From Pontibacter actiniarum (GTDB lineage: Bacteria > Bacteroidota > Bacteroidia > Cytophagales > Hymenobacteraceae), in the NCBI RefSeq assembly GCF_003585765.1, contig NZ_CP021235.1, forward strand, positions 3,658,001-3,722,000: a stretch of DNA of 64,000 nt, written 5' to 3'. The notes beneath the pieces were generated by a model, which was not told where the DNA came from, ran no database searches, and worked only from the letters and a program-made list of their open reading frames with translations. Positions 39,988-41,640 of this stretch are shown here, one piece after another. The position numbers and the translations under genes were made by a program. Numbering within the stretch: position 1 is the stretch's first letter; every line of letters begins with the position of its first letter.

Positions 39988-40089
39988 TAAACTGCTGTAT
40001 TTCAACTATAGCCCGGCCTACTCCGTACATAAAAGCCCGCCTCGTGCGGACATTGAATATGTACAACATCAAAACAAGGAGATAGAACT

Positions 40090-40932
40090 ATGGCAAACAA
40101 ACCCATGAACCTGAACGGCAGCGAGGGTGAGAACCACGAAATAGGCCGCAAACTATATAACCAAGAGCATCACCAGAACCAGCAACAGGGGCAGCGCTAC
40201 GGCTACCGCGGAACAGACACGCGCCAGTGGGGCGAAGGCAACTACTTCCACACAGGCCCCAACCCGCGCGGCGCGCAGGACTCGCCACAGCGCAAGTACG
40301 GTGACAACTATCAGCACGACCGCAACAGCTCTTACGCACAGGGCCGCAACGCCCACCTGAACGACCACTACGGCAGCGAGTCGATGAGCTCCTACCGCAA
40401 CGAGCGCGACTACATTGACCACGGCGACCGCGGCAACTACCAGCACAGCCAGCAGCACAGTATGCGCCGGCCCCACACATCGGGAGACGCGCTGGAAAAC
40501 AGAGGCAACCGCTACGATGTAAACGACTACCAGAACGACCAGTGGCGCGAAGGCCCGGGCAGCCGCAGCCGCTACAAAGAGGATGACTACCGCTACGGCA
40601 GCGGCTCGCACAACTGGTACCGCGAGGGCCGCTACACCCCAGACAACGACGCCTCCGCACCGCACCCGCGCGACAACCGCGGCTTTATGGACCGCATGAA
40701 GGACACCTGGAACGACATCTGGCACTCTGACGATGCAAACTACCGCCAGCGTAACCGCCACGAGTCGCCGACGGAGCGCACCAGCAGCAGAGGCCACCAC
40801 GGCTACGAGTCGTACCGCGACCGCAACTTTGACAGAGGCTTTGAGGGCGGACCGCGCTGGGCCGACGAAGTAGACTCAGGAGACGACAACTATTACAACG
40901 ACATCAACAGAAACCAACGCTGGCGCCGCTAA
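40090..40932 (+). CDS. Highly hydrophilic disordered protein
   Basis: The 280-residue protein is almost wholly Arg, Asn, Asp, Tyr, Gly, Ser, His and Gln, with no Cys and very few Leu, Val or Ile. Typical stretches are GQRYGYRGTDTRQWGEGNYF and SESMSSYRNERDYIDHGDRG; the only ordered-looking segment is FMDRMKDTWNDIWHSDD (about 198-214). There is no signal peptide or membrane helix. A strong Shine-Dalgarno AAGGAG sits 8 bases before the ATG (40076-40081), unusual for this phylum and suggestive of high expression. Composition recalls hydrophilins or stress and desiccation proteins, but the family is not one I can name. It has its own terminator and a similar protein lies downstream. Confidence 0.75.
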   Translation: MANKPMNLNGSEGENHEIGRKLYNQEHHQNQQQGQRYGYRGTDTRQWGEGNYFHTGPNPRGAQDSPQRKYGDNYQHDRNSSYAQGRNAHLNDHYGSESMSSYRNERDYIDHGDRGNYQHSQQHSMRRPHTSGDALENRGNRYDVNDYQNDQWREGPGSRSRYKEDDYRYGSGSHNWYREGRYTPDNDASAPHPRDNRGFMDRMKDTWNDIWHSDDANYRQRNRHESPTERTSSRGHHGYESYRDRNFDRGFEGGPRWADEVDSGDDNYYNDINRNQRWRR

Positions 40933-40990
40933 GCCGTATAAATAGCCAGATTAGGTAGATTTGGTAGTAGATTAGTTTTAGTTAGCAAAC

Positions 40991-41020
40991 AACAGAGCCG
41001 GCCACTGCGCCGGCTTTGTT
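40991..41020 (+). terminator. Terminator after hydrophilic protein gene
   Basis: AACA-G-AGCCGGC pairs with GCCGGCT-TTGTT across a short loop, then ATTTT. Confidence 0.85.
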
Positions 41021-41130
41021 ATTTTGCATAAAGCTGCTTATCTTAAAAAGGAACATCCTGATTATCACGCCGTACATTACAGTACCCGCGGCTTAGCCAG
41101 GAGATTTTTTCAACTATTAAGACACACCAC

Positions 41131-41583
41131 ATGCAGCACGAAGAGCAAGACCCACGGCACCGGGAGCACCAGCGACACCGCCGCGAGCAGTATCATCAGA
41201 TGCGCCACCAGGACGACGATCATTTCCATGATTTCAGTAGCAGATGGAGCGAGCCTGCACCGCCTATAGACCTGAACCGCTATGATTGGCAGCCACGCAA
41301 CGTTGGCCGCTTTGAGCGCACGGGGGGCTACCACCGGGAGGAGTGGCCTAACGACCAGCGTTACCGCCGGCAGCCGCAGCGCTACCAGCACCACCCGGAC
41401 CAGCACTACCACCAGATGGGGGAACAGCAGCACCGCGAGCCTATCTGGCGCCAGCGCGACGTACACTTCGACCCGAGCAACCAGCGCGTGGAAGACCGGT
41501 GGTTCGAAGACCCGACCATGCCGCACCCGCAGCAGCGCCCACCGCGCCACTACGATGGCTTTTGGGAAGATTACGAAGACTAA
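41131..41583 (+). CDS. Second hydrophilic, His/Arg-rich disordered protein
   Basis: The 150-residue protein has 17 His and about 23 Arg, no Lys and no Cys by hand count, plus many Gln, Asp, Glu, Pro and Trp. It opens MQHEEQDPRHREHQRHRR and ends PPRHYDGFWEDYED. The middle (IDLNRYDWQPRNVGRFERTG) is a little more ordered-looking. Base composition and codon use match the neighbours. It follows the other hydrophilic protein in the same direction but from a separate transcript. Metal or nucleic-acid binding is imaginable from the His/Arg content; nothing proves it. Confidence 0.7.
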   Translation: MQHEEQDPRHREHQRHRREQYHQMRHQDDDHFHDFSSRWSEPAPPIDLNRYDWQPRNVGRFERTGGYHREEWPNDQRYRRQPQRYQHHPDQHYHQMGEQQHREPIWRQRDVHFDPSNQRVEDRWFEDPTMPHPQQRPPRHYDGFWEDYED

Positions 41584-41608: not shown

Positions 41609-41640
41609 AAAGCCGGAGCACTCCCGGCTTTCGTTTTTTC
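41609..41640 (+). terminator. Terminator after His/Arg-rich gene
   Basis: AAAGCCGG (41609-41616) pairs with CCGGCTTT (41624-41631), followed by CGTTTTTTC. Confidence 0.88.

Follow-up and report, generated by a model that had tools for sequence, protein, structure and literature searches.

Two disordered, hydrophilic proteins conserved across Pontibacter and their likely place in a putative stress regulon

In a 64,000-nucleotide stretch of Pontibacter actiniarum DNA (NZ_CP021235.1, positions 3,658,001 to 3,722,000; hereafter the window, with position 1 as its first letter), two consecutive genes on the forward strand encode extremely hydrophilic proteins that are predicted to be disordered. 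ORF1 (40090..40932) specifies 280 residues dominated by Arg (13.2%), Asn, Gly, and Asp (10.4% each), and Tyr (8.2%), without any Cys. Among 48 ORFs picked greedily from the window, it has the lowest GRAVY value (-2.04), the runner-up standing at -1.03 and the median at -0.29. ORF2 (41131..41583) encodes a His/Arg/Gln-rich protein of 150 residues that is missing from this list, where an overlapping, longer spurious frame displaced it, and its GRAVY value of -2.25 lies below that of ORF1. A recount of its residues gave no Cys, no Lys, 17 His, and 23 Arg. Positions and compositions therefore agree with an original prediction made from this DNA, which had described two Cys-free, extremely hydrophilic proteins, the second without Lys and with 17 His and about 23 Arg. 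Cys is likewise absent from all members of the ORF1 (53/53) and ORF2 (49/49) alignments, and 27 of the 49 ORF2 members have no Lys. The solid terminators that had also been proposed were recovered as terminator-like hairpins 3′ of each gene, at 40991..41020 and 41609..41631 on the forward strand. As for the strong Shine-Dalgarno sequence announced for ORF1, an AAGGAG string is indeed present at 40076..40081 (forward strand), but it is not a conserved feature, such strings preceding only 3 of 50 orthologues from the genus group.

An ORF1 homologue was found in every one of the 50 genomes of the genus group (Pontibacter, own genome counted) among 99 relatives searched, in 3 of the 11 genomes from elsewhere in the family, and in none of the 38 from other families. 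A wider search of the family matched 84 of 204 genomes, which fall in the genus group, in Rufibacter- and Adhaeribacter-type genera and, weakly, in 12 genomes of a sister-genus group (g5) that we infer to be Hymenobacter. Record names among the matches are Pontibacter, Botryobacter, Rufibacter, Sabulibacter, Adhaeribacter, and one Thalassomonas. The Thalassomonas locus (L294) matches over 21 residues, but these lie inside a 49-residue frame, and it was set aside as a relative. When the ORF1 profile was run against 395 genomes of the phylum, few of them family members, only the own genome matched. By search, ORF2 was recovered in 25 of the 99 relatives, all from the genus group. Reading the DNA that follows ORF1 revealed a hydrophilic ORF2 candidate directly 3′ of it in 49 of the 50 genus-group genomes. 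In the fiftieth genome, ORF2 is present on the other side of ORF1 because ORF1 alone is flipped; the inverted gene retains its own promoter element, and the orientation of ORF2 and of every neighbour is unchanged. In the two Rufibacter-type loci and the one Adhaeribacter-type locus that were read, no such candidate was seen 3′ of ORF1, and ORF2 was not found anywhere outside the genus group.

The genus-wide gene order is kinase, regulator, ORF1, ORF2, glycosylase, aminotransferase, and amidase (40 loci, not every gene being found in each), the neighbours having been named by sequence inspection rather than by a family scan. Many genomes carry several hundred extra bases between ORF2 and the glycosylase gene, with no recognised gene in them (L057 to L096). 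Closest-pair dN/dS values range from 0.05 to 0.16 for ORF1 and from 0.03 to 0.15 for ORF2, and the medians for pairs with dS between 0.1 and 1.5 are 0.28 and 0.22, which confirms that both are under purifying selection. The low closest-pair values, together with the conserved gene order, indicate that ORF1 and ORF2 are real genes and not chance frames. No paper on either protein appeared among those listed in a literature search.

AlphaFold predicted no fold for either protein (mean pLDDT of 52.3 for ORF1 with 53 sequences and of 54.5 for ORF2 with 49 sequences). The original prediction was to be given up if relatives had no conserved protein frame or if folded domains were predicted; with ORF1 in 50 of 50 genus-group genomes, ORF2 adjacent in the same 50, and no predicted fold, it survived. 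Only two helices are predicted in ORF1, at residues 14 to 29 (40129..40176, forward strand; conserved block ENxxIGRxLY) and at residues 199 to 211 (40684..40722, forward strand; FMDRMKDTWNDIW, weakly similar to the SWFGD motif), with ten-residue pLDDT means of 75 to 87 around the latter. This second helix looks amphipathic from the spacing of its F, M, W, and I residues, but its amphipathicity is not significant by hydrophobic moment because the region scores 0.51 and the maxima of shuffled sequences average 0.61; the top windows of ORF1 (0.82) fall within the unfolded GPRWADE region. The latter belongs to a C-terminal conserved block (residues 241 to 262, SYRDRNFDRGFEGGPRWADEVD; 40810..40875, forward strand) in which E252, G254, P255, W257, D259, and D262 are invariant. 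ORF2 has two motifs of its own on the forward strand, one at residues 31 to 44 (41221..41262) around SRWSEP (FRSRWGEPxP in the family), with R38 and W39 invariant and P42 nearly so, and one at residues 117 to 124 (NQRVEDRW; 41479..41502), with Q118, R123, and W124 invariant and D122 nearly so. Neither ORF, nor any alignment member, matched Pfam or NCBIfam above cut-off, no LEA family appeared among the Pfam matches, Rfam gave no match, and ORF2 had a single match in the PDB, at an E value of 1.1. No motif common to the two proteins was seen beyond composition, their ranges differ, and their promoter elements are separate, which argues against the proposal that they represent one type of protein.

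The type proposed had been an undescribed hydrophilin or condensate-forming one. Hydrophilins are defined by a Gly content above 6% and a hydrophilicity index above 1. Both proteins are highly hydrophilic (Kyte-Doolittle means of -2.04 for ORF1 and -2.25 for ORF2), and ORF1 fits the Gly limit with 10.4%, though not in every alignment member (range, 5.2 to 13.0%). ORF2, with 3.3% Gly (0.7 to 5.4% over its alignment), does not fit.

Each gene is preceded on the forward strand by an element of the ECF type: CAAC-TATAGCC...-CGTACA with a 17-nt spacer before ORF1 (40003..40029; genome match G000:C1:3698003-3698029) and GAAC-ATCCTGATTATCACGC-CGTACA with a 16-nt spacer before ORF2 (41051..41076; G000:C1:3699051-3699076). 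These are the only two exact AAC-N16/17-CGTAMA sites in the 64-kb window, and no sigma-70-type promoter was found in the stretch. Among 53 relatives, AAC-N15..18-CGTA occurs within 130 nt upstream of ORF1 in 51, the regular expression finding none in the remaining two (L020 and L022). In 48 of the 50 genus-group genomes the spacer is 16 or 17 nt and the box ends 49 to 67 nt before the start codon, and all four additional Rufibacter/Adhaeribacter-type ORF1 loci carry the element as well. ORF2 has its own element within 170 nt in 45 of 49 relatives (within 130 nt in 41), and none by regular expression in the other four. For four neighbouring genes, the corresponding counts within 130 nt were 0/39, 3/38 (the glycosylase gene), 0/39, and 0/37, and background rates were 43/2000 in random windows and 66/2040 in letter shuffles. 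The 12 sister-genus proteins of group g5 that share a block with ORF1 (see below) have no convincing element, nine having none and three a CGTACC variant. Just after the -10 element of ORF1 lies a short stem-loop in the leader (40035..40051; reported by the hairpin scan on the reverse strand, with no strand assigned here). Such a hairpin follows the -10 box in most relatives, with different letters in the stem, and the mean z score is -1.91 over 48 ORF1 leaders versus 0.14 over 36 ORF2 leaders.

Genome-wide, the pattern shows no excess over its backward reading (22 versus 20, 48 versus 86, and 29 versus 57 sites for the forms counted). What is unusual is only the placement of the sites and not their number. 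Fourteen of the 22 TAAC sites of the own genome lie just upstream of an ORF. For the other forms of the pattern the counts were 6 among 30 examined (48 in all) and 4 of 29, and the backward pattern gave 2 among 30 examined (96 in all). The genes behind the sites include those for superoxide dismutase, dodecin, pirin, LemA, YceI, DUF2382, a short-chain dehydrogenase, and a manganese catalase, although some of them will be chance matches. All 13 genomes read have the same element ahead of an SWFGD-domain gene. Footprinting settles two of the listed genes: the element precedes dodecin in 6 of 7, and in 11 of 12 close orthologues of the manganese catalase it begins 57 to 62 nt ahead of the start codon. 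None of 16 distant paralogues of the catalase has it at that place, and one of them has an unrelated match further upstream. These distant paralogues (L336 to L351) mostly carry an AAGGAGG-like Shine-Dalgarno sequence without the ECF element, and the close orthologues show the reverse.

The element shared with the SWFGD, dodecin, and manganese catalase genes suggests that the ORF1/ORF2 pair most likely belongs to an oxidative or general-stress regulon of the ECF-sigma type, and it lends independent support to the stress role proposed originally. On the other side, beyond the missing genome-wide enrichment, none of 22 loci from a sigma-region-4 search carries the element upstream, where autoregulation would have placed it. 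When 10 of the 17 sigma loci above cut-off were typed with NCBIfam, none stood out; for locus L297 the nearest model is TIGR02947, at 175 bits (cut-off, 251.55). At another candidate locus (L306), the ECF sigma gene adjoins a gene that resembles phytoene desaturase, as judged from its sequence. Three unnamed hydrophilic proteins also lie 3′ of the same promoter-like element (L133:917-1462, L141:1557-1730, and L147:1588-1899), and those of L133 and L147 gave no Pfam match. In P. korlensis, catalase genes are reported to be upregulated after gamma radiation and superoxide dismutase is not (PMC4460873).

The SWFGD-domain protein of the own genome (L127:4916-5887, at about 611 kb of G000:C1) is a true low-complexity member of its family with a second, weaker SWFGD-like repeat (VKSWFNDDDD) in the middle of the chain. 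The second helix of ORF1, RGF[FM]-DR-V-KDTWNDI, resembles the SWFGD motif, and ORF1 relatives score up to 17.4 with the motif model (median, 3.1), above both reversed (top, 8.5; median, -2.0) and shuffled (top, 6.1; median, -2.6) controls. ORF1 might accordingly be a diverged SWFGD-domain protein whose helix gives it a function in common with the true one, and the common promoter element, the low-complexity hydrophilic make-up, and the DRGFF-[DE]-R helix would all fit. The family model NF033157, however, has a curated cut-off of 35 bits, and the best ORF1 relative reaches 19.4 bits over 14 of the 29 positions; a match, at an E value of 0.0084, was obtained for 1 of 53 members, and the SWFGD letters themselves are absent. 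We treat the likeness as resemblance rather than membership and consider a shared function through this helix unlikely.

The deepest-conserved part of ORF1 is YKEDDYRYGSGSHNW, which recurs in otherwise unlike proteins of the sister genus and lies within a block at residues 154 to 185 (EGPGSRSRYKEDDYRYGSGSHNWYREGRYTPD; 40549..40644, forward strand). The deepest 20-residue windows of ORF1 are residues 161 to 180 (RYKEDDYRYGSGSHNWYREG), with identities of 0.75, 0.70, and 0.45 to three outgroup members, and residues 241 to 260, with identities of 0.60 to 0.70 to the Rufibacter and Adhaeribacter members. In an alignment of 25 of the 33 blocks found, near-duplicates being left out, D13, R15, G17, S18, G19, and W23 of the block are invariant across four genus groups. 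In the g5 genomes, the same block forms the core of low-complexity proteins of about 150 residues (11 of 12 aligned on the same principle), with DDPRYGSGTRNW invariant, and one of these proteins is rich in Ala, Pro, Asn, Thr, and Glu. The g5 proteins (L352 to L363) often carry a NDGSNDNPDEFS block as well, at the N terminus in some of them and near the C terminus in others. Plasmids yielded no match to the ORF1 block.

SERBP1 is a mostly disordered dormancy factor. Searches of 177,635 PDB sequences, with matches listed up to an E value of 10, returned two matches for the whole ORF1 profile, both SERBP1 (E values of 0.019 and 0.13). The 25-row block profile returned 13, nine of which are SERBP1 or HABP4 (6.7e-5 to 0.32), the others being mS45 chains and one other protein from an E value of 2.3 onward. 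This block was cut after the first SERBP1 match had been seen, and the match spans about 20 residues. The 11-row profile built from the g5 blocks alone, that is, from proteins of different composition, matched SERBP1 only (E values of 0.02 and 0.83), and four other conserved ORF1 blocks of equal profile length matched nothing up to an E value of 10. The K..(E)D.R.GSGSHNW stretch of SERBP1 and HABP4 is found in ORF1. The Pfam family HABP4_PAI-RBP1 was not matched by any of 53 ORF1 members up to an E value of 1, nor by four short ORF1 pieces and six g5 proteins up to an E value of 10, although HMMER filters may hide weak matches. The stretch matched by ORF1 corresponds to residues 18 to 38 of the 55-residue SERBP1 chain modelled in the ribosome of entry 6mte. 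Work on the rabbit ribosome places SERBP1 on inactive ribosomes, in the mRNA entrance channel and touching 18S rRNA and uS3, with its DRHS motif wrapped around nucleotide C1701 of 18S rRNA (PMC6226290). That motif is absent from the aligned stretch and from ORF1 as a whole.

How ORF1 and ORF2 might act can be read from these features in several ways. As pure hydrophilin- or LEA-like fillers, they would oppose aggregation during water loss in bulk, as hydrated chains whose composition matters and whose motifs are incidental. Their GRAVY values, the lack of a fold, and the lack of Cys agree with this, as do the hydrophilins DtpA and DtpB of Acinetobacter, which are reported to be clustered with the KatE catalase and to support survival of drying (PMC13232832). 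The low Gly content of ORF2 does not, and the invariant residues that ORF1 keeps in fixed blocks across genera, one block even recurring in differently composed proteins of a sister genus, count against it because bulk action would not need them; we regard it as a tentative and somewhat unlikely alternative. The same blocks go unexplained if the proteins act through Arg-Tyr/Trp stickers, undergoing phase separation under stress and gathering clients. Here composition is the whole of the argument (13 to 15% Arg, 12 to 13% aromatic residues, few or no Lys, and a net charge near zero), and condensate formation appears improbable to us.

A more specific possibility is that ORF1 is a dormancy factor like SERBP1 or Stm1, its RYGSGSHNW block threading the mRNA entrance channel so that idle 30S or 70S ribosomes are kept inactive and intact while stress lasts. 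The agreement of the whole-ORF1, block, and g5-only profiles on SERBP1 (the block also on HABP4), the silence of the four control blocks, and the position of the matched stretch within the chain modelled in the ribosome, where SERBP1 lies in the channel, speak for it. The shortness of the match, the block boundary drawn after the fact, the failure of the Pfam model, and the missing DRHS speak against it, and convergence or chance may account for the likeness; on balance, this role is possible but rather unlikely. The proposal is speculative, and we advance it with reserve, when extended to a disordered family of the Hymenobacteraceae, some of its members ECF-promoted, whose defining motif K..DD.RYGSG..NW would fill the mRNA entrance channel in idle ribosomes of bacteria much as SERBP1 and Stm1 do in eukaryotes. 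If true, bacteria would possess a ribosome-dormancy factor of a new class, whether related to that of eukaryotes or arrived at by convergence.

We favor, with a probability of about 0.6, the reading that ORF1 and ORF2 belong, each with a promoter of its own, to a Pontibacter stress regulon and are disordered protectants, ORF1 binding a target through its fixed motif. Conservation, purifying selection, the lack of a predicted fold, and the shared promoter element, all obtained by computation, are its foundation; sigma control, induction by stress, and protection would follow as its working parts. Under stress, two largely unfolded, highly hydrated proteins would be made along with manganese catalase, dodecin, and the SWFGD-domain protein. 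The flexible chain of ORF1 is more than filler, as it carries several short motifs that stay fixed (the N-terminal helix, the RYGSG..NW block, the amphipathic-looking helix, and the GPRWADE block), so that binding to a macromolecular target is its most likely mode of action, and it would shield that target during stress or drying. Idle ribosomes would be the best current candidate for this target, as a conjecture, and ORF2, restricted to the genus group, would accompany ORF1, probably as a protectant or buffer. Of the original interpretation, the frames, the disorder, and the stress role are thus retained, and the hydrophilin label for ORF2 and the single protein type are not; the Shine-Dalgarno sequence proved not to be conserved. 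That interpretation had included neither the promoter element nor the RYGSG..NW block with its deep conservation and its match to SERBP1.

Pontibacter is studied for its resistance to desert conditions, drying, and radiation. Two unnamed genus-wide proteins are here tied to a putative catalase/dodecin stress regulon that is open to direct test, and if the motif match is functional, bacteria and animals would be silencing ribosomes with one and the same short peptide, carried in a disordered chain. As disordered protectants, ORF1 and ORF2 would vary a known theme; what sets the pair apart is the fixed motif of ORF1 and its specific match to SERBP1. They resemble DtpA and DtpB of Acinetobacter as hydrophilic stress proteins linked to a catalase (through the same cluster there and apparently the same regulon here); unlike DtpA and DtpB, ORF1 has fixed motifs and ORF2 lacks the glycine content. 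With SWFGD proteins (NCBIfam NF033157) of the same organism, ORF1 has in common the promoter element and a DRGF[FW]-DR helix in a low-complexity chain, although it stays below the family cut-off and has no SWFGD core. The promoter element recalls the EcfG regulons of Alphaproteobacteria, with a bipartite layout, an AAC-containing -35, a GT-containing -10, and similar spacing (EcfG motif GGAAC-N17-20-GTT in PMC6599016), but the -10 is CGTA here and the host belongs to the Bacteroidota. Finally, ORF1 differs from the eukaryotic ribosome-dormancy factors SERBP1, HABP4, and Stm1 in being bacterial, in having no Pfam match, no DRHS, and only about 20 comparable residues, and in that its ribosome binding is conjectural, and it shares with them a long, intrinsically unfolded chain, a stress or dormancy setting, and the stretch DRSGLKHEDKRGGSGSHNW against SRSRYKEDDYRYGSGSHNW.
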